DNA of 64,000 bases from Allotamlana fucoidanivorans (lineage in GTDB: Bacteria > Bacteroidota > Bacteroidia > Flavobacteriales > Flavobacteriaceae), in NCBI RefSeq assembly GCF_006265225.1, contig NZ_VDCS01000004.1:1-64000 (forward strand). Reading direction: 5' to 3'. Each line of letters opens with the position of its first letter. The first letter of the stretch is position 1. The notes beneath the pieces are model-generated. The model saw only the letters and a list, made by a program, of their open reading frames with translations. It made no database searches and was not told the origin of the DNA. The position numbers were made by a program, and so were the translations under genes. This document shows positions 20,175 to 30,954 of the stretch, one piece after another.

Positions 20175-20711
20175 TTAGAATTTCAATGATTTTAATTTGA
20201 ATGCTATATTGGTATTAAACAATCCTGAAAGAATAAAACCTACTCCTACCCATATACTTATAGCGAGAGTGCCCACCAATAAATTATTTGTAATGATAAA
20301 ACCTACAATAACAGACAATACCCCACTTATTAAACCAAACCACCAATTTTTAACACCAGTTTTCTTAAAGTTGAAAGACTCTAAAAACGTCATTAGCCCT
20401 GAAATAATAATCCAAAAACCAACTACAAAAGGTAAAGTTATAGCCGTTATTCCTGGACTAGATAACAAAATAAAACCAAACACAATATCTATTATACCAA
20501 TAGTTAAGCTCCATCCCCAATTATTAAATACTTTTCTTGTAGATAAGGCTCCAATCACCTGCATAATTCCTGTGAATAATAAGGTTATACTTAAATAAAT
20601 CCCCATACCTACTAAGGCATCCATAGGATTTCCTACAATAAGGAAGCCTAAAGAAATTAAAACGATACCTCTTAATAATACTAACCACCAATTTTTTTTC
20701 AATGTTTTCAT
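20175..20711 (-). CDS. HdeD / DUF308 family membrane protein
   Basis: Inner-membrane protein of 178 residues with six predicted helices in three hairpins, each carrying the DUF308 pattern of a glycine-rich turn and a hydrophobic run (RGIVLISLGFLIVGNP, GIIDIVFGFILLSSP, GVLSVIVGFIITN). E. coli HdeD is linked to acid resistance at high cell density. The family is common in stress loci, but its molecular role is unclear. The gene is on the same strand as the DUF5335-like gene 90 bases upstream. Confidence 0.82.
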   Translation of the reverse strand: MKTLKKNWWLVLLRGIVLISLGFLIVGNPMDALVGMGIYLSITLLFTGIMQVIGALSTRKVFNNWGWSLTIGIIDIVFGFILLSSPGITAITLPFVVGFWIIISGLMTFLESFNFKKTGVKNWWFGLISGVLSVIVGFIITNNLLVGTLAISIWVGVGFILSGLFNTNIAFKLKSLKF

Positions 20712-20800: not shown

Positions 20801-21109
20801 TTAAAGTAATCCTACTGTTGTTGTTAAACCCTTTTTATCTAAAATCTTAATTGAGGTGACTTCTCCATTCTCTTGTTCAACCACAAACAATTCTTTTGGA
20901 TAATCCATGTTATGAATATAACCATCAAGGGTTAGCACTAAATCATTGCCTTTTGTTTTAGGATCATAGTTTATAGACTCAAGCACCCCACTTTCAATGA
21001 TTGTTTTGTCTTCAAAATCTATTTTTGCTATTCGCCCCCGGTTTCCTGTTGACAACGTTTGAAGTCTGTTTTGCCAATCTGAAGGTTCTAGTTTTTTAAT
21101 CACTTGCAT
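20801..21109 (-). CDS. DUF5335-like small protein
   Basis: Protein of 102 residues with no signal or membrane segment. The opening EPSDWQNRLQTLSTGNRGR, with a Trp followed by a short helix and a basic turn, then beta-rich segments, resembles DUF5335 proteins. Function unknown. It lies upstream of the HdeD-like gene on the same strand and may share stress regulation with it. Confidence 0.6.
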   Translation of the reverse strand: MQVIKKLEPSDWQNRLQTLSTGNRGRIAKIDFEDKTIIESGVLESINYDPKTKGNDLVLTLDGYIHNMDYPKELFVVEQENGEVTSIKILDKKGLTTTVGLL

Positions 21110-21534: not shown

Positions 21535-22995
21535 ATGTATAAAAATGTACCCATCTTTTCTTCCTATTCGTTTGATAACAAATTTCTAGATGAAGTCTTT
21601 GATTCACAAGGTAATGTAAGAGACATATACAAAACACTTTTTGATTTATATGAGTGTCATAGTATATCAGATTTTGAAACTTTAAATGAGTATGCTAAAA
21701 CTTCTTTTTTTAATCAAGGCATTACATTTCAAGTCTATGGAAATAATGAAACTAAAGAAAAGATTTTTCCTTTTGATTTGTTTCCAAGAATAATAGATCA
21801 TAAAGAATGGCAGCATATAGAAAATGGTGTATTGCAGCGTAGTAAGGCATTAAATTTATTTCTAGAAGACTTATATCACGATCAAAACATTATTAAAGAG
21901 GGTATTGTGCCACAAGCACTTATTGAATCATCGGCTAATTATTTAGAACAGATGAAAGGCTTTGATCCTCCTGGAGGTATTTATAATCATATTTCAGGTA
22001 CAGACTTAATAAAACATTCTGATGGTAATTACTATGTTTTAGAAGATAATATTAGGTGTCCTTCAGGCGTGAGCTATGTAATATGTAACAGAACAGCTTT
22101 AAAACGTGCCTTATTTGGAGTCTTTGATAAATATAAAATACATACGGTTAATGATTACTCCCAAAACCTATTAGATATTCTAGAAACCGTAAAACCTCAA
22201 GGTGTCGATAAACCCAACTGTGTAGTACTTACACCTGGTGTTTTTAACTCGGCCTATTATGAACACTCATATTTGGCTAAAGGCATGGGGGTTGAGTTGG
22301 TTGAAGGTCGTGATCTTTTTGTAGAAAAAGGATTTGTTTACATGAAAACCATCAACGGGCCTAAAAAAGTTGATGTTATTTATAGAAGAATTGATGATGC
22401 CTTTCTGGATCCTGAAGTTTTTAATCCCGACTCGGTATTAGGTGTTCCTGGATTGTTTTCGGCTTATAAAACAGGTAACGTATGTTTGGCGAATGCGCCG
22501 GGCACTGGAGTGGCTGATGATAAAGCCATTTACACTTATATGCCAGAAATTATAAAATATTACTTGGGGGAATCTCCTATTCTTAAAAATGTACACACCT
22601 ATCATTGTAACCGAAAAGATGATCTTGAATATGTTTTAAATAATATTGCATCTCTAGTGGTTAAACCTGTTGATGAAGCTGGTGGTTATGGTATTTTTAT
22701 CGGAAATAAATTATCAAAAAAAGAGATTGAAGATGTTAAAAAAATTATTTTAAAAACACCTAGAAAGTACATTGCGCAACCTATAATGTCGCTTTCTGTA
22801 CATTCTACTTATATAGAAGATGAAAAATCTTTTGAACCCAGGCATGTAGATTTGCGTACGTTTACTTTACTTGGAAAAGATAAAAGTTATGTGCTAAAAA
22901 GTGGTTTAACCAGAGTTGCACTGAAGAAAGGAAATTTAGTTGTTAATTCTTCGCAAGGCGGTGGATCAAAAGATACTTGGGTATTAAAAAAATAG
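21535..22995 (+). CDS. circularly permuted type 2 ATP-grasp protein (stand-alone)
   Basis: Predicted ATP-dependent carboxylate-amine ligase of 486 residues (DUF404/DUF407 family). Family blocks seen are PFDLFPRII (79-87), VLEDNIRCPSGVSY (168-181), VDVIYRRIDDAFLDP (279-293), a glycine-rich nucleotide-binding loop KPVDEAGGYGIF (377-388), and NSSQGGGSKDTWV near the end. It would form peptide or isopeptide bonds; the substrate is unknown. The gene is 6 bases upstream of a free-standing alpha-E gene, and a fused copy of both domains is encoded on the opposite strand at 25053-27608. Compared with that copy, this one keeps a canonical GGYG loop. Confidence 0.9.
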   Translation: MYKNVPIFSSYSFDNKFLDEVFDSQGNVRDIYKTLFDLYECHSISDFETLNEYAKTSFFNQGITFQVYGNNETKEKIFPFDLFPRIIDHKEWQHIENGVLQRSKALNLFLEDLYHDQNIIKEGIVPQALIESSANYLEQMKGFDPPGGIYNHISGTDLIKHSDGNYYVLEDNIRCPSGVSYVICNRTALKRALFGVFDKYKIHTVNDYSQNLLDILETVKPQGVDKPNCVVLTPGVFNSAYYEHSYLAKGMGVELVEGRDLFVEKGFVYMKTINGPKKVDVIYRRIDDAFLDPEVFNPDSVLGVPGLFSAYKTGNVCLANAPGTGVADDKAIYTYMPEIIKYYLGESPILKNVHTYHCNRKDDLEYVLNNIASLVVKPVDEAGGYGIFIGNKLSKKEIEDVKKIILKTPRKYIAQPIMSLSVHSTYIEDEKSFEPRHVDLRTFTLLGKDKSYVLKSGLTRVALKKGNLVVNSSQGGGSKDTWVLKK

Positions 22996-23001
22996 AAATT
23001 T

Positions 23002-23952
23002 ATGTTAGCAAGAGTTGCAGATAATTTATTTTGGATGAGCAGGTATATAGAACGCTCAGAACATGTAGCACGGTATTTAAGGGTTAATTACTTTTCTTCA
23101 TTAGACGCCCCTAATGAACTGTCTCAATCTAGACAATTTGTATTGAGGTCATTACTTTTTATGGTAGGAGACCCTATAAAAGACGATACACATGTAGCAG
23201 AAACAGATGTGCTCTATAACATTTGTTTAAACCTTAAAAAATCATATTCCATTATAAATTGCGTGAAATTGGCTCGTGAAAATGCTAATAGCTCGCGTGA
23301 TTTAATCTCTACCGAATTATATGAAGCTATAAACAAGTTTTATCATTTCGTTTTAAACTATTCCTCTGATTATTTGGTTACCAAAGGATTGTATGATTTT
23401 GCCACGCATATTATAGAGTTTACCGCTATATTGAAAGCAAAAATTAGATGCACCTTACTGTATGATGAAGTATATTCTATAATTAATCTTGGGCTTAACA
23501 TGGAAAGAGCTACCCAAGTTATTAGAATAATAAATGCTAAGTATAACGATATACAAGCCATTGAACTTAAAAGAGAAGAAGGCGCTTTGGTTGCTCCTAC
23601 ACTAGAATGGGATACCTTATTAAGATGTGTTGAGTCTTATGACATGATGAGACGCTTTACCAGAGAAACCCCAAATAGCATTAATACGTTAGATTTCCTA
23701 ATATTGAATCACCAGTGCCCAAGATCAGTTATTAATAGTCTTTCTGATGTGGCACAACACATACAGGTGTTATCAGATGACATAAAACCCAAAAAAGGAA
23801 CTACTGCATTTTTAGTTAATAAAATTTATGCTGAGTACCAGTATAAATACATTGAAGAAATTGAAGTAGATTTTAGAACATTTATTGAAAAAATACTAAA
23901 TAAATTAGTTGAAATCAGTAAAAAAATGGAAGAAGAATTTTTCTATCATTAA
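23002..23952 (+). CDS. alpha-E domain protein (DUF403)
   Basis: All-helical protein of 316 residues opening with LARVADNLFWMSRYIERSEH, the strongly conserved start of alpha-E proteins. These nearly always accompany a circularly permuted ATP-grasp ligase and are predicted to act with it in amide-bond formation. It directly follows the ATP-grasp gene (6-base gap), so the two form one operon. No catalytic residues are assigned for the family. Confidence 0.9.
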   Translation: MLARVADNLFWMSRYIERSEHVARYLRVNYFSSLDAPNELSQSRQFVLRSLLFMVGDPIKDDTHVAETDVLYNICLNLKKSYSIINCVKLARENANSSRDLISTELYEAINKFYHFVLNYSSDYLVTKGLYDFATHIIEFTAILKAKIRCTLLYDEVYSIINLGLNMERATQVIRIINAKYNDIQAIELKREEGALVAPTLEWDTLLRCVESYDMMRRFTRETPNSINTLDFLILNHQCPRSVINSLSDVAQHIQVLSDDIKPKKGTTAFLVNKIYAEYQYKYIEEIEVDFRTFIEKILNKLVEISKKMEEEFFYH

Positions 23953-23991: not shown

Positions 23992-24031
23992 AACGCTTTT
24001 TTCTGTAATTTAATACCATGAAAAAAGCGTT
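23992..24031. repeat. 11-bp inverted repeat overlapping a micro-ORF start
   Basis: AACGCTTTTTT at 23992-24002 and AAAAAAGCGTT at 24021-24031 can pair with an 18-base loop. The right arm begins immediately after the ATG at 24018, so the hairpin could expose the start codon in its loop or end transcripts of the alpha-E operon. There is no T-run after the 3' arm, which argues against a classical terminator. Confidence 0.45.
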
Positions 24032-24101
24032 AATGCAATCTAATAACATCACAGAAGCTGATGAGTCATTAATTCAGCAACAACAGCAACAGCAGCAGTA
24101 A
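24018..24101 (+). CDS. 27-residue peptide with C-terminal polyglutamine tail (candidate)
   Basis: A short ORF that begins MKKALMQSNNITEADES, continues with LI, and ends in eight consecutive glutamines before TAA. It lies 66 bases after the alpha-E gene, on the same strand, and 19 bases before the convergent transglutaminase gene. A glutamine tail between two amide-ligase genes and transglutaminases would suit a peptide substrate, but this is only inference. The ORF is too short to be certain it is translated, and no ribosome-binding site is seen (weak evidence in Bacteroidota, where such sites are often absent). The CAA/CAG run could also be simple-repeat DNA. Confidence 0.35.
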   Translation: MKKALMQSNNITEADESLIQQQQQQQQ

Positions 24102-24120: not shown

Positions 24121-25044
24121 TTACTGAATTGTTTCTTGACTAGACGCTGCCTTGCTATTTAATGCTTTTATATCAACCGATACATTAAGTTTACTTGTTC
24201 CTGAGCTGTAAACTACCCCCTTTAAGGGTGGTACATCATAATAATCTCTTCCCCAGCCAACAACAATATGCTGGTTTTCTGGAATAGTATTATTCGTTGG
24301 GTCAAAATCAACCCAACCATATCCTGGAATAAATACTGCAAACCAGGCATGTGAGGCATCAGCTCCAATAAGTTTAGGCTTTCCAGGGGGTGGTACTGTT
24401 TCTATATAACCACTAATATAGCGTGCTGGCAACCCCACACTCCGTAAGCAAGCAATTCCTATTTGTGCAAAATCCTGACACACACCTTTCTTTTCTTCCA
24501 TAACCACACTTAAAGGTGTTGAAACACTGGTAAAGCCCGAAACAAAACTAAAATCAACATAAATACGTTGCATAAGCTCTTTGGTCGCTTCAAAAACAGA
24601 ACGATTTGGTTTAAAGGATTCTAAAGCATATGCCTTAATGTTCGCTTTACTGTTTTTAATTAAAATAGAATCTAAAATAAATTGCTTAGGCTCAAAATTT
24701 TCTTTGGTATTCCTATTCAAACTATTCAAAGCTTCCTCTAAAGTCACTTTAACACTCTCCTCTGAATAAAAACTGTTCTTGATAGCGGTATAGTCTCTAG
24801 ATATTTTACAGATTGAAGTCACCTCTAACTTTTTATGCGCTTTCTGAATAGAAAAACGGGTCACATTATTACCAAAAAAATCTTTACGTTCAGAAAACTC
24901 TGTAGGCTCAGGATTAATAGCTACATGATACTCTAAAAGTTTTTGTCCAGGAGATTGCCTTGGCTTAATAGTAGCTATATTATGGCAAAACACAACTTCC
25001 TCGCTATAACTATACTCTGTGATATGTGTAATAAGAAAATCCAT
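24121..25044 (-). CDS. bacterial transglutaminase-like protein
   Basis: Papain-fold protein of 307 residues with the bacterial transglutaminase N-terminal beta domain (about 1-85) and a catalytic core. The triad is C189 (KKGVCQDFA), H232 (ASHAWFAV) and D248 (DFDPTNN). Known relatives are predicted to be amidases, peptidases or transglutaminases acting on amide bonds. It is the last gene of a three-gene - strand operon (8 bases from the ATP-grasp/alpha-E fusion). No signal peptide is seen, so it probably acts in the cytoplasm. Confidence 0.9.
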   Translation of the reverse strand: MDFLITHITEYSYSEEVVFCHNIATIKPRQSPGQKLLEYHVAINPEPTEFSERKDFFGNNVTRFSIQKAHKKLEVTSICKISRDYTAIKNSFYSEESVKVTLEEALNSLNRNTKENFEPKQFILDSILIKNSKANIKAYALESFKPNRSVFEATKELMQRIYVDFSFVSGFTSVSTPLSVVMEEKKGVCQDFAQIGIACLRSVGLPARYISGYIETVPPPGKPKLIGADASHAWFAVFIPGYGWVDFDPTNNTIPENQHIVVGWGRDYYDVPPLKGVVYSSGTSKLNVSVDIKALNSKAASSQETIQ

Positions 25045-25052
25045 AGTCTTAA

Positions 25053-27608
25053 TTAGCTAAACTGTTGTCTTGTGAGCTGACTCTGATCATTCACATGATT
25101 AAAATACGTATCGGAAATGGTTTTAGAGGTTTTATAAAGCAAGGCATTTAACTCTGACAATAAGTTGTTTAAATTTTCCCTCAAATACATGTTTTCTTCA
25201 GAAACAGAGACTAAATTGGCAACTGAAGCCAATCTTAGCTTTGAAAAAGCTTCAAAAATAGGTTTTTCATAATCTTGTAATGCTCCTTTAACTTTAGAGT
25301 GCGGTAAATGAATAATATCCTTTCTAACCCTATTTACCAAATAGGTAAGAGAACGTGCATATTTAGTATCTAAAAGAATGAGGGAAATCACACTACTAAT
25401 ATTAATATATGAACGATAACTATATCTATAAATATTTAAACTTTCATGGCTGTGTAACATGGCTTCTAAAATTTCATATTCAATATAATCATCCGTTACC
25501 ACGGTTAACATGCTCTGAAAATTAGATACATTTAAAATAACGCGTTCAAGGTTAAGACCAATAAAATACAGTAAAAGTCCCTGATCTACCAAAATACTCT
25601 CTTCAATTAATCCCATAAAGGCAATAAGCCGCGTAATTAATTGATCTAGAACTTTAATTAATGCTTTATAGGATACGGATTCTTCATCTGCATTGATAAC
25701 GGGATCCCAAATTTGATGAATACTTTCAAACACACGCCACATATCGGTGGACCACAGGTTTCTAATGGAGTAATACGAATTACTAAACATAGATAACGTA
25801 TGCGCTAAGCTACCTACTTTATTCTTATCAACTATAACAGCAATGAGTTCTTCTCTGATATTTGAAATTGAAGGTTTTCCTTTATCTCCCACAAAACCCG
25901 GATAGGTATTTGTGAGTTGTGTTACCGAACGCAGTAAAATACTCAGTTTGGTATTGGTTTCTAAATCAATATCCTCTTCATTATTAATCATTTGATTAAG
26001 CACCATCCTTAAATGCCTACTAGTAACCAAAGCTCTACCAATATAACGTCCTGCCCAGTATAAATTCTCGGCAGTTAAACTAGGTAAATCATTTAACCCA
26101 GTGGCAACTGGAGTAACATTGGTTTCAACTCTTGGCGCTTTTATTTTTGATGCATTTTCATCTATAATGCAAAAATCCTTACTGGTTCCGCCACGCTGGT
26201 TACTTACCCGAACAGTTTCTTTTGTTGAAGATACTCTAACTAACCCACCAGACATAACACTATAACCCTCAGTATTAGCAATAGTGAATGCTCTACAAAC
26301 CATATTTCTAGGTTCAAGTTTGCCATTCACAAAATTAGGTACTGTTGAAAACTTTATTTTTTCTTGAGCAACGTATAAATACGGGCGGCTTTTTATTTTA
26401 TTTTTTAATTTTTCTAATTCTTGTGTGTTTAAAAACTCTGCAAACACAATACTTTCTCGGTTAGATTTATCTATTCGTTTGATTACTAACTTGGAAATAT
26501 CAGACATTACATGATCTAATTCTTTCTTTTGTCCGCACCACCAAGTGGCAATTTGGGGTAAGATTAATTTTTCGTCTAAAAAATATTTAGCCACGGCAGG
26601 CATAAAAGGAATAAGCCCTGAGTTTTCAATGATACCAACCCCTACAGGATTAATAATGCTTACATTTCTTCGCCTAACAACATCTAATAAGCCGGCAACA
26701 CCTAAATAAGAATCTTCTCTTAATTCTAACGGGTCAACAAACACATCATCTACCCTTCTATACACCACATCAACTTGCTTTAAAGCTTTAAGGGACTTCA
26801 TCCAAAGCTTTCCGTCTCGAACTACCAAATCACTACCGCGTACTAAAGGAAACCCGTAATAAGAGGCTAAATAAGCATGTTCAAAATAGGTTTCATTATG
26901 TGGTCCTGGCGTGAGAACAACAACCGTTGGATTTAATGTTTTAGCTGGAGCTGATTGGATTAACAGCTGGTTAAAATCATTGAAAAACCGGTCTTGATCA
27001 CCAACATGTATGCTTCTGTATACATGAGGCAGTACCCGACTAGAAATTGTTCTATTTTCTAAGGAATACCCCATTCCTGAAGGTGCTTGTGCCCTATCAT
27101 TAACCACCCACATTCTTCCATCTGGGCCTCTAGACAAATCAGCTGCATAAACGGACAGGTATTTTTCTGTATTCAGCTGAATACCATCACACTGCCTTAA
27201 AAAGCCTCTATGCCCAAAAATGACCTCATGAGGAATTATTCCGTTTTTAAGCAATTCTCTATTGCCATAAACATCCTTAACTACTAAATCAAGTAATGTA
27301 GCTCTTTGCTGTAACCCTTTCTCAACATCGTTCCACTCATTTTTGTGCATTATGAAAGGCACAAGATTCAAACTCCATGGACGATTAAGGCCTTTGGGGT
27401 CATTATAAACGTTGTAGGTAATACCATTTTCGGCCAAATTCCAATCAATTTCTTTTTGTCTAGAAATTAATTCGTCGCGCCCCAAGGTTTTTAACGTGTC
27501 GTATAAATTCTTCCAAGTCGTTTTAACCTGCTTGTTTTCATGAAACATCTCATCGTAAGACACCCCATCAAAATAGTTTTCAATTAATGACTCAACATCC
27601 AGCTTCAT
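25053..27608 (-). CDS. fused circularly permuted ATP-grasp / alpha-E protein
   Basis: Protein of 851 residues that joins both modules encoded separately at 21535-23952. The ATP-grasp part is about 1-482 (NDRAQAPSGMGYSLENR at 170-186, VDVVYRRVDDVFVDP at 279-293, RGGTSKDFC near 472-480). The alpha-E part is about 505-840 and opens with LTAENLYWAGRYIGRA. Where the stand-alone copy has GGYG, this one has KRIDKSNRESIVF (377-389), so the nucleotide loop differs. The operon order is DUF2126-transglutaminase, this gene, transglutaminase, with gaps of 10 and 8 bases. Confidence 0.92.
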   Translation of the reverse strand: MKLDVESLIENYFDGVSYDEMFHENKQVKTTWKNLYDTLKTLGRDELISRQKEIDWNLAENGITYNVYNDPKGLNRPWSLNLVPFIMHKNEWNDVEKGLQQRATLLDLVVKDVYGNRELLKNGIIPHEVIFGHRGFLRQCDGIQLNTEKYLSVYAADLSRGPDGRMWVVNDRAQAPSGMGYSLENRTISSRVLPHVYRSIHVGDQDRFFNDFNQLLIQSAPAKTLNPTVVVLTPGPHNETYFEHAYLASYYGFPLVRGSDLVVRDGKLWMKSLKALKQVDVVYRRVDDVFVDPLELREDSYLGVAGLLDVVRRRNVSIINPVGVGIIENSGLIPFMPAVAKYFLDEKLILPQIATWWCGQKKELDHVMSDISKLVIKRIDKSNRESIVFAEFLNTQELEKLKNKIKSRPYLYVAQEKIKFSTVPNFVNGKLEPRNMVCRAFTIANTEGYSVMSGGLVRVSSTKETVRVSNQRGGTSKDFCIIDENASKIKAPRVETNVTPVATGLNDLPSLTAENLYWAGRYIGRALVTSRHLRMVLNQMINNEEDIDLETNTKLSILLRSVTQLTNTYPGFVGDKGKPSISNIREELIAVIVDKNKVGSLAHTLSMFSNSYYSIRNLWSTDMWRVFESIHQIWDPVINADEESVSYKALIKVLDQLITRLIAFMGLIEESILVDQGLLLYFIGLNLERVILNVSNFQSMLTVVTDDYIEYEILEAMLHSHESLNIYRYSYRSYINISSVISLILLDTKYARSLTYLVNRVRKDIIHLPHSKVKGALQDYEKPIFEAFSKLRLASVANLVSVSEENMYLRENLNNLLSELNALLYKTSKTISDTYFNHVNDQSQLTRQQFS

Positions 27609-27618
27609 TAGAACTTCA

Positions 27619-30600
27619 TTATTTTTTACGCAAATCTAATGTATTTGGAAATTCTGGATCAATAGGAAGCGTTTTATATCTAAATTTTCTTTTACTTCCC
27701 AGCGCTTCAACTACCCTAAGAGGTCCAGCCACATCACTAGCTGTAATCTCTTCTATAATATCAACTTCTGTTTGTGTTTCACCAATATCCCAAAAACGAT
27801 TAATACGTCTCGATTCTGCTTCAAAACTATTCACTGGAAATGTATCATAAGATCGGCCTCCTGGATGCGATACAAAATATTTACACCCTCCTATAGACTT
27901 TCTGTTCCATGTATCCACAATATCAAAAGCTAATGGCGTATCAACACCAATAGTAGGGTGTAAGGCTGAATACGGATTCCACGCTTTGTACTTTACACCG
28001 GCTACATACTCGCCTTTTACGCCTGTAGGCTGTAACTGAACTTTTACTCCGTTACAGGTTAACACATATCGTTCTCTAGTGAAATTAGAAACTTTTACCT
28101 GTAAACGCTCTAGCGAAGAATCTACATAGCGTGCAGTTCCACCACCTGTCATTTCTTCTCCCAGTACATTCCATGGTTCTATGGCAGCTCTTAATTCCAG
28201 ATGAATATTATTAATATCAACCATACCATGCAATGGGAATCTAAATTCAAAAAATGGATCAAACCAACTTTCTTCAAATTTATATCCTGTTCTATTTAAC
28301 TGATCTACTACATCCTTAATATCTTCTCTTACAAAATGCTCTATTAAAAATTTATCATGTAACTCGGTACCCCAACGGACTAAATCATGTTCATAAGGTT
28401 TTTTCCAGAACCAAGCCACTAAAGCCCTCACTAAAAGCATTTGTACCAGACTCATTTTGGGATGCGGTGGCATATCAAAACCTCTAAGCTCTAAAATACC
28501 TAAACGCCCAGAAGACGAATCGGGTGAATACAATTTATCTATACAAAATTCGGCTCTATGTGTGTTGCCTGTTAAATCTGTTAATAAATGTCTGAACAAC
28601 CTATCCGTGAGCCAAAACGGTACTTCGCCATTTTTAGGAATTTGACTAAATGCTATTTCCAACTCATAGAGATTTTCCATGCGTGCTTCATCTATACGAG
28701 GGGCTTGACTTGTAGCTCCAACGAATGCTCCTGAAAACAGATAAGAAAGCCCTGGATGATGTTGCCAAAATGTTAGCAAACTGCGCAATAAACTAGGTTT
28801 ACGAAGTAATGGACTATCAGAAGGTGTAATACCTCCTAGAGTTACATGATTTCCACCTCCTGTTCCTGTATGTTTACCATCAAGCATAAATTTTTCAGTA
28901 CCTAATCGTGCTTTTTTGGCCTCATCATAAAGCATAAGCGTATTATTCACTAAATCACCCCAATTATGAATTGGATGTACGTTTACCTCAATCACCCCAG
29001 GATCTGGGGTGATTTTCATGGATTCTATCCTGTTGTCATGAGGTGGATTATACCCTTCTAAAATCACGGGAATATTTAATTTTTTAGACACAGCTTCAAT
29101 AGATGCTACAAGGTCTAAAAAAGCTCCAATTGAATTTAAAGGTGGTAAAAACAAATACAGTTTATCTTCTCTTATTTCAGAACAAATGGCTGTTCGCACA
29201 AAGTATTTTGGCTTGTTAGCGTCCAATCCATTTTTAGAAAATGCCTTATACCGTAAGTTTACCAAGCGTTTAAAACTTGGTAATTGCTTCCGTTTTTTAA
29301 ATAAGTCTGGCTCATACATAGGAAAATCAGCGTATTCCGGCTTTGTTTCCAATGAACTTAAAGGAAGCCTTAAACCTATAGGTGATGTTCCAGGAGTTAA
29401 AAACAAATGTTTTCTTCGGAAAACCCATTCTGAACTAAACCATTGGTCACCAGACTTATTTAACGGTAAAATAAATCCTGCTGCCTTATGGGTTCCTCTA
29501 TTAAGTATCTCAGCAATACGCTCCCTTATTAAAGCGTCACTATCATCTTCCGTAGAGTCAATATCAATTGGCATATTCCCTTCTTCCCATAAAGTATAAA
29601 AAGCATCTTCATAGGCAGGTATAACACTGCTTTTAGAAATAGCTAAATAATCACAAAGCGTTTTCAAAAATGTAATATCGCTCCCTTTGGGAACCATAGG
29701 GTTTGGTGCAAAACTGGATAATAACTCTTGGTTATGCCAAATCATTTTGCCATCTTTTCTCCAATAAAGCTGGATTTCCCAACGAGGTAGCGGTTCTCCA
29801 GGGTACCATTTCCCTTGTGCATGGTGCAACATACCTCCTTTTCCCATTTTACCTAACAACCTCTTAGTAAGCTCATTAGCTAATTGCCTTTTATGAGAAC
29901 CATCGGCATCTGTATTCCATTCAGGAGCTTCCATATCATCTATAGATACAAACGTAGGTTCACCTCCCATGGTTAGCCTAACATCTCCTTTTTGTAAATC
30001 GCGTTCTACTTTATGGCCTAATCTATTTATAGCTTTCCACTGTTCTTCTGTATAGGGTTTGGTAACGCGTGGGGATTCTAATATTCTGGTTACTGAATTG
30101 CTAAATTCAAATTCAGTTTCACAAGGATCTGTCATCCCTGTTACAGCTGCAGCACTATCATAATGCGGGGTACAGGCTAGTGGAATATGTCCTTCGCCTG
30201 CCAGTAAGCCTGAGGTTGCATCAAAACCAATCCAACCTGCTCCAGGTAAATAGACTTCGGTCCATGCATGCAAATCGGTAAAATCTTCTGCTGGACCTGA
30301 GGGGCCATCTAAAGAAGGTTCATCTGCTTTTAACTGAACAATATAACCAGAAACAAAGCGGGCACCAAACCCTAAACGCCTAAGAACTTGTACAAATAAC
30401 CAAGCATAATCTCTACAAGATCCTGTTTTACATGCCAACGTTTCTTCAGCCGTTTGAACTCCAGGCTCTAACCTAATATTATAAGATAAGAATTCATATA
30501 TTTTTTGGTTAAGGTCTGTTAAGAAATATATGGTTTTTCTTGGTGTATAATCAATGGTTTTTAAAAAAGCCTCTATTAGCTCGCCGGAATCATTGATTTC

Positions 30601-30954
30601 AAGATACGGTGTTAATTCTTTTTTTATACTTTCGGCGTATTCAAAAGGGTATTCTTCTACACTTTCTTCTACAAAAAAATCGAAAGGGTTTATGGTTTTT
30701 AAATCGGCTATAATTTCTACATCAATAGACAACTCCTTTGTTTTTTCTGGGAATACTACCCTAGCTTGATAGTTTCCAAAAGGGTCTTGTTGCCAATTAA
30801 AAAAATGCTCTTCAGGGGTTATTTTCAAAGAATAGGATTCAATAGGCGTTCTGCTATGTGGTGCAGGTCTTAGCCTAAAAATGTGAGGAGATAAGTTTAC
30901 TTTCTTATCAAATTTGTATGAGGTTTTATGAGAAATAATAACTTTTAAAGCCAT
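27619..30954 (-). CDS. transglutaminase-like / DUF2126 two-domain protein
   Basis: Protein of 1111 residues. An N-terminal bacterial transglutaminase domain (about 1-285) has the triad C180 (TGSCRDYAWL), H229 (LHAWTEV) and D245 (GFDATSG). The DUF2126 region (about 300-1090) includes RLTMGGEPTFVSIDD, GTGGGNHVTLGG and LELRGFDMPPHPKMS, which are characteristic of the family and resemble glutamine-synthetase-like or peptide-ligase folds. It is the first gene of the - strand operon. Members are repeatedly found with circularly permuted ATP-grasp and alpha-E proteins. The reaction is unknown. Confidence 0.92.
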   Translation of the reverse strand: MALKVIISHKTSYKFDKKVNLSPHIFRLRPAPHSRTPIESYSLKITPEEHFFNWQQDPFGNYQARVVFPEKTKELSIDVEIIADLKTINPFDFFVEESVEEYPFEYAESIKKELTPYLEINDSGELIEAFLKTIDYTPRKTIYFLTDLNQKIYEFLSYNIRLEPGVQTAEETLACKTGSCRDYAWLFVQVLRRLGFGARFVSGYIVQLKADEPSLDGPSGPAEDFTDLHAWTEVYLPGAGWIGFDATSGLLAGEGHIPLACTPHYDSAAAVTGMTDPCETEFEFSNSVTRILESPRVTKPYTEEQWKAINRLGHKVERDLQKGDVRLTMGGEPTFVSIDDMEAPEWNTDADGSHKRQLANELTKRLLGKMGKGGMLHHAQGKWYPGEPLPRWEIQLYWRKDGKMIWHNQELLSSFAPNPMVPKGSDITFLKTLCDYLAISKSSVIPAYEDAFYTLWEEGNMPIDIDSTEDDSDALIRERIAEILNRGTHKAAGFILPLNKSGDQWFSSEWVFRRKHLFLTPGTSPIGLRLPLSSLETKPEYADFPMYEPDLFKKRKQLPSFKRLVNLRYKAFSKNGLDANKPKYFVRTAICSEIREDKLYLFLPPLNSIGAFLDLVASIEAVSKKLNIPVILEGYNPPHDNRIESMKITPDPGVIEVNVHPIHNWGDLVNNTLMLYDEAKKARLGTEKFMLDGKHTGTGGGNHVTLGGITPSDSPLLRKPSLLRSLLTFWQHHPGLSYLFSGAFVGATSQAPRIDEARMENLYELEIAFSQIPKNGEVPFWLTDRLFRHLLTDLTGNTHRAEFCIDKLYSPDSSSGRLGILELRGFDMPPHPKMSLVQMLLVRALVAWFWKKPYEHDLVRWGTELHDKFLIEHFVREDIKDVVDQLNRTGYKFEESWFDPFFEFRFPLHGMVDINNIHLELRAAIEPWNVLGEEMTGGGTARYVDSSLERLQVKVSNFTRERYVLTCNGVKVQLQPTGVKGEYVAGVKYKAWNPYSALHPTIGVDTPLAFDIVDTWNRKSIGGCKYFVSHPGGRSYDTFPVNSFEAESRRINRFWDIGETQTEVDIIEEITASDVAGPLRVVEALGSKRKFRYKTLPIDPEFPNTLDLRKK

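Follow-up and report, generated by a model that had tools for sequence, protein, structure and literature searches.

A glutamine-tailed micro-ORF beside ATP-grasp/alpha-E genes in Allotamlana fucoidanivorans, best read as the free-standing form of a C-terminal tail on operon transglutaminases

The operon that groups Anbu, alpha-E, circularly permuted ATP-grasp and transglutaminase genes has been predicted to make peptides or to attach tags (Valas and Bourne 2008; Iyer et al. 2009; both related in the available text of PMC5666114 and PMC6376114). According to the available portions of two 2017 papers on Anbu, its physiological substrates are still to be found (PMC5666114) and none of the proposed roles has been confirmed (PMC6376114). 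The 64,000-nucleotide stretch of Allotamlana fucoidanivorans DNA analyzed here (the window) raises a related question. A 27-codon reading frame ending in eight glutamine codons lies among genes for the same kinds of enzymes, and an earlier note made from the sequence alone had suggested that its product may be the substrate or tag of the cluster. Is this frame a gene, and could its glutamine tail be what the neighboring enzymes work on?

The micro-ORF was found where it had been described, with the product MKKALMQSNNITEADESLIQQQQQQQQ (27 residues, eight terminal glutamines), in the 168-bp gap between an alpha-E gene and a convergent transglutaminase gene (Table 1). Pfam likewise returned the neighboring domains claimed for the locus, namely the circularly permuted ATP-grasp, Alpha-E, Transglut_core and DUF2126. 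The ATP-grasp and alpha-E genes are adjacent, and the structure matched by the ligase, PDB 3n6x, is a solved putative glutathionylspermidine synthase. This operon has no transglutaminase of its own; the transglutaminase is convergent and belongs to the DUF2126 cluster, and the micro-ORF occupies the operon position. The convergent transglutaminase carries the motifs GVCQD, HAW and DPT, and the transglutaminase-DUF2126 fusion carries GSCRD, HAW and DAT. Solved relatives of these transglutaminase folds are 3isr and 6g49, and 6g49 bears the name protein-glutamine gamma-glutamyltransferase. Sequence searches of the PDB gave no match for the 1111-residue transglutaminase-DUF2126 protein and nothing better than E 0.02 for alpha-E. 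The DUF2126 part, which is predicted to be GS-like, was modeled by AlphaFold with a pLDDT of 41, too low to judge a GS- or PafA-like fold. No NCBIfam family was matched by the micro-peptide or its five neighbors. Upstream of the ATP-grasp gene lie genes for a DUF5335 protein (20801-21109, minus strand) and a DUF308 protein (20175-20711, minus strand).

Table 1. Positions of the micro-ORF and neighboring features in the window
Feature	Position	Strand	Remarks
Circularly permuted type 2 ATP-grasp ligase	21535..22995	+	Pfam PF14403 6e-159; PDB 3n6x E 2e-156
Alpha-E protein, immediately 5' of the micro-ORF	23002..23952	+	Pfam PF04168 3e-64
12-bp perfect inverted repeat around the micro-ORF start	23992..24031	.	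Arms 23992-24003/24020-24031; not conserved as such
Gln-tailed micro-ORF, 27 aa	24018..24101	+	Stop 24099-24101; orthologues at the same place, purifying selection
C-terminal tail of eight Gln codons, mixed CAA/CAG	24075..24098	+	
Transglutaminase-like protein, convergent to the micro-ORF, intact Cys/His/Asp motifs	24121..25044	-	PF01841; PDB 3isr 6e-15
Fused ATP-grasp/alpha-E protein	25053..27608	-	Pfam
Transglutaminase-DUF2126 fusion, putative amidoligase by Pfam name	27619..30954	-	PF09899 1258 bits

It is nearly certain that both the gene and its glutamine tail are real. In the 4.0-Mb genome as a whole, the only instance of the Q5-stop pattern (CAR)5+TRR is the one in the micro-ORF, which places the frame beyond chance. 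Alpha-E relatives were taken as the best 80 of 102 loci in GTDB genomes, and a conserved glutamine-ended ORF at the same place, as the earlier note had anticipated, was present in eight of these 80: a frame of 25–29 residues with a glutamine-tract end just 3' of alpha-E. The carriers (two Algibacter, three Aquimarina, Maribacter vaceletii and two uncultured Flavobacteriaceae) are, within these 80, exactly the loci whose alpha-E is at least 74% identical to that of the window. The closest named relatives of its alpha-E in that list were from Algibacter onchidii (91%) and A. mikhailovii (90%), although very near genomes may be absent from it. The remaining 72 loci have no glutamine-ended ORF directly after alpha-E; a loose scan found some other short glutamine-ended frame elsewhere in the fetched DNA of eight of them, that of L071 being the end of a transglutaminase.

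In all nine members, window included, the frame is unbroken, without frame-breaking indels, and ends in glutamine. The distance from the alpha-E stop to the micro-ORF start ranges from -1 (TAATG) to 73 nt, and one start codon is TTG (L006, an Aquimarina MAG). In the same MAG (L006, 7051-8234) the micro-ORF and the convergent transglutaminase are about 1.2 kb apart, whereas the other members have them within about 100 bp of each other. In terms of a RiPP precursor comparison, eight of the nine micro-peptides start M-x-[EK]-[AS] and the glutamine tail is encoded beside ligases. Codon-level conservation was evident among the three closest micro-ORFs, with pairwise pS of 0.84, 0.94 and 0.77 against pN of 0.21, 0.21 and 0.17; these values are approximate, because only 27 codons are compared and synonymous change is near saturation, but their direction is clear. 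Across seven aligned tail codons, the first and second positions showed no change and the third showed 4, 6 and 4 changes in the three pairs. Together, these comparisons indicate that the micro-ORF is a genuine gene under purifying selection at the protein level. The inverted repeat fared differently. It was reported as 11 bp and is in fact a perfect 12-bp repeat, but over the start L004 shows just a palindromic stretch of 70% complementarity, and L005 and L009 have no inverted repeat there, so it is discounted as a conserved element and appears incidental. No terminator-like site was found.

To place the tail in a wider context, 178 distinct stand-alone alpha-E loci were annotated with profiles built for this analysis. 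They comprise the window, 78 of the best 80 loci, 42 loci from 51 DUF2126-bearing genomes, 39 Bacteroidota loci from 40 hand-picked (118 of 296 Bacteroidota genomes have alpha-E) and 18 plasmid loci, a sample that is neither even nor independent. A tail was scored when at least three of the last eight residues were glutamine (3-of-8), or by a looser 2-of-8 rule. In 124 operons the order is ATP-grasp, alpha-E and transglutaminase, without Anbu and without a convergent transglutaminase. A row for L006 that represents a truncated fused protein is an artefact; it is included in the background count, the run-length counts and the 179-row tree given below and is left out of the 124-operon and 178-locus counts and of the 85- and 88-row clade figures.

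The operon transglutaminase bears a 3-of-8 tail in 94 of the 124 operons without Anbu (111 by the looser rule), and glutamine is its last residue in 111. By phylum, 3-of-8 tails were present in 91 of 119 Bacteroidota operons and in three of five from other phyla. As a background, 4 of the 1169 remaining long ORFs in this DNA (artefact row included) reached this threshold, giving a Fisher p of about 1e-110, which is too small because the loci are relatives of one another. Terminal glutamine runs range from 0 to 14 (artefact row included), and CAA and CAG are mixed in 46 of the 50 operon transglutaminases that end in at least four glutamines. In a model of a tail-bearing transglutaminase (mean pLDDT 89.5), the tail is of low confidence and lies past the last strand, outside the fold. 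In one locus (L192, G322:C49:203800-203835), a 14-glutamine tail ends at a stop beyond which the frame runs on through five more glutamine codons to another stop; it looks as though a longer glutamine tract had acquired a stop within it.

Other carriers were also found. Alpha-E itself has a 3-of-8 tail in 12 of the 178 loci, and any local carrier is present in 122 (147 at 2-of-8), leaving 56 loci without one at the stricter threshold and 31 at the looser. Operons that do contain Anbu give a weaker signal, with a tail in 8 of 19; in two Anbu operons without a tailed transglutaminase nearby (L232 and L255), Anbu ends ISLQQ. For plasmids, 24 records were hand-picked among about 105 matching, with some genera represented at least twice, and 10 of the 24 operons have a tail; leaving out Hymenobacter, which belongs to the Bacteroidota, gives 9 of 23. 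Of these nine tails, those in Acidithiobacillus and Methylobacterium are weak. The plasmid tails end in QSQAQSQS in Shinella, TQSQSQ (on alpha-E) in Azospirillum and SQQAQQQ in Klebsiella. Thus, a tail is usual in the sampled Bacteroidota operons without Anbu and a minority feature in a small sample elsewhere. Comparison of these loci gives good support to the view that the tail is a mobile element, borne by the operon transglutaminase, alpha-E or the DUF2126-cluster transglutaminase, or supplied in trans as a peptide. On Caballeronia, Kozakia and Hymenobacter plasmids (L273, L308, L310 and L312), a gene for a putative zinc-binding metallopeptidase adjoins the ATP-grasp/alpha-E genes and may belong to the system as well.

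DUF2126 is present in 51 of 397 sampled Flavobacteriaceae genomes, all 51 of which have alpha-E. In these 51 genomes (CAR)5+TRR occurs at 37 sites, and the backwards-read pattern at 8, of which a single genome holds five. Judged by their coordinates, 20 of the 37 sites are inside these clusters, two of them within one tract of G322. Of the 17 unlinked sites, 15 end frames of 6–57 residues, one is TGG and not a stop, and one ends a 156-residue ORF. This unrelated ORF (L289), which ends ENLKQQQQQQQ with seven glutamines, is the only ORF longer than 100 residues in the 51 genomes with an unlinked Q5-stop end. A tailed transglutaminase, alpha-E or micro-ORF is present in 41 of the 51 genomes at 3-of-8 and in 46 at 2-of-8. 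Genomes G014 and G285 have a single terminal glutamine only, and in L173 (G328) and L175 (G144) a glutamine-rich stretch of the transglutaminase (QQYQQQQQLRQQ in L173) is followed by a nine-residue C-terminus without glutamine. G270, the assembly of which is 76% complete, has no terminal tail at all. The tail also seems to be shared out between carriers. Where the operon transglutaminase is tailed (2-of-8 and glutamine last), the transglutaminase of the DUF2126 cluster has a 3-of-8 tail in 2 of 34 genomes, compared with 8 of 17 where it is untailed (p = 0.0011, with post hoc thresholds and related genomes). In 10 of the 51 genomes, an operon transglutaminase was not found.

The tail has outlasted the catalytic cysteine in some carriers. 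The Cys motif is missing in six of the 124 operon transglutaminases, and the alignment places the loss or change of the Cys region in L077, L079, L181, L165, L178 and L188. Among these, L077, L079 and L181 retain a clear tail, SQQQ(Q), and L178 (SQQ) and L165 (ending EQ) a weak one. L188 has lost both the cysteine and the tail, and its genome, G227, has a seven-glutamine tail on the cluster transglutaminase. Five of the 51 genomes have a Cys-less operon enzyme, and all five also have a transglutaminase with the Cys motif. An alpha-E tree (FastTree, last 14 residues removed, midpoint root) unites the nine micro-ORF rows in one clade with support 100. This clade is nested in one with 85 rows and support 92, where 71 rows have a tailed transglutaminase and 5 have none; the larger clade is itself nested in one with 88 rows and support 90. 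From the tree and the gene positions we infer that the micro-ORF arose once, at the transglutaminase position, in a clade of mostly tail-bearing operons. The simplest history would start from a tailed operon transglutaminase; the gene for this enzyme would have been lost in the common ancestor of the micro-ORF clade once the neighboring DUF2126 cluster covered its activity, and the tail would have been kept as a peptide of 25–29 residues. The Cys-less tailed transglutaminases look like a halfway stage of such a process, though they are not direct ancestors.

Given these patterns, the micro-ORF product is best read as the free-standing form of the system's C-terminal glutamine tail. Since it is real, selected and the counterpart of the tail on its relatives' transglutaminases, the micro-peptide is a good substrate candidate. 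The earlier suggestion that it serves as the substrate or tag is strengthened by the tail that relatives carry on the transglutaminase or alpha-E, by the change of carrier and by the persistence of the tail after cysteine loss in some; it is still something that we infer. On balance, we lean slightly toward the tail being a handle or substrate on which the ATP-grasp/alpha-E/transglutaminase system works. The transglutaminase-fold enzymes might act on the glutamine side chains, either deamidating them to glutamate or transferring them to an amine. Amide formation might follow from activation of a carboxylate at or near the tail end by the ATP-grasp ligase, perhaps with DUF2126. A broader and more tentative version, to which we would give about one chance in three, makes a ribosomally synthesized poly-glutamine acceptor a property of the operon and not of any single protein. 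Transglutaminase-fold enzymes and ATP-grasp/DUF2126 ligases would then turn it into a tag for conjugation or into a modified primer, in a pupylation-like scheme with no PafA and, here, no recognizable proteasome.

Several other explanations need to be weighed against the handle or substrate reading. The tail could be a short linear motif through which its carrier docks on alpha-E or the ATP-grasp enzyme for complex assembly, with the micro-ORF product as a soluble adaptor or competitor. Its C-terminal location past the last strand, its low confidence in the model and its confinement to proteins of the operon would suit this role. However, it is kept by transglutaminases without the catalytic cysteine and by a peptide without a body, and what is conserved is composition, with no fixed motif and with terminal runs of 0–14. 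A handle or substrate fits better than docking because the composition is kept, some inactive-looking carriers are tailed and the peptide can stand alone, and we regard docking as unlikely, at somewhat above one chance in five. A degron or stability tag that sets how fast its carrier turns over, with the free peptide as a remnant or decoy, would also be C-terminal, outside the fold and composition-based. Near restriction of the tail to this system (the 4 in 1169 background) and the lack of a proteasome-family (PF00227) match in the window genome count against it, and a free peptide under selection fits it poorly; we consider this improbable.

Even less probable is a leader ORF that senses glutamine through Gln-tRNA, or a nitrogen store. 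A homologous cluster is NtrC-dependent in Burkholderia cenocepacia and nitrogen starvation raises Anbu, according to the available parts of PMC5491218 and PMC6376114, respectively. Nevertheless, the glutamine tracts are the 3' ends of coding genes, and there is nothing downstream of the micro-ORF to attenuate because it is followed by a convergent gene; a leader peptide or attenuator is thus excluded by position. As for storage, a 27-residue peptide holds little nitrogen. Least probable of all, and in our view ruled out, is a chance ORF over a CAR microsatellite. The frame is indeed short and repetitive, but nine intact frames, purifying selection on codons, mixed codons and a single Q5-stop site genome-wide speak against it.

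How, then, does the element relate to known systems? The window's relatives share with the Anbu operon the same enzymes in the order ATP-grasp, alpha-E and transglutaminase. However, no match to PF00227, which covers Anbu, HslV and proteasome subunits, was found in the window genome (assembly 99.9% complete; 10 of 14 controls positive), and the window adds a DUF2126 cluster and the glutamine-tailed element. Pup is, like the micro-peptide, a small protein, in some species with a C-terminal glutamine; it ends in GGQ or GGE and is much longer than 27 residues. The micro-peptides, unlike Pup, lack a GGQ or GGE end and carry homopolymeric glutamine, and the tail can sit on an enzyme. In addition, no PafA/Dop-family match (PF03136) was found in the window genome, and the control, Corynebacterium glutamicum, was positive. 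In some species with PafA/Dop, the C-terminal glutamine of Pup is deamidated to glutamate before ligation (PMC8599861, available text), which offers one precedent for the handle or substrate reading.

A second point of comparison is the LysW/ArgW carriers, whose partners LysX and ArgX are ATP-grasp enzymes. LysX or ArgX forms an amide on the carrier's C-terminal residue, and the C-terminal glutamate of LysW receives the amino acid (PMC10433800, available text). An amide made by a ligase on the end of a small carrier is a feature of this system and a precedent for the tail, whereas the nine micro-peptides lack the EDWGE end and the zinc-binding Cys set, and the window ligase matches a different ATP-grasp family. 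Since there is no GGQ/GGE or EDWGE end and no PafA/Dop or proteasome match, the micro-peptide is placed in neither the Pup nor the LysW family. In the Rlo operon of Pseudomonas, an ATP-grasp enzyme and a transglutaminase-like protein also share one operon, the protease of which cleaves poly-glutamate. It differs in its RimK-related ATP-grasp, its membrane-bound inactive transglutaminase and its retropepsin, and no encoded tail is described there (all from the available text of PMC12239564). Furthermore, no mention of a glutamine tail was found in the available portions of the literature on the system (PMC6376114, PMC5666114, PMC3710099, PMC8665760, PMC5491218 and PMC12239564, Iyer et al. 2009 not being covered).

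These observations bear on earlier experiments. In a Yersinia study, a transglutaminase with a C-terminal FLAG tag showed no specific interaction (PMC6376114, available text); if the Yersinia protein has a tail, a FLAG tag at its C-terminus would hide the role of that tail. C-terminal tags would mask such a tail wherever it is present. Encoded on most sampled Bacteroidota operons without Anbu, and also as a bare peptide, the glutamine tail offers a concrete substrate candidate, and may be the substrate still sought for a bacterial system that makes amide bonds.
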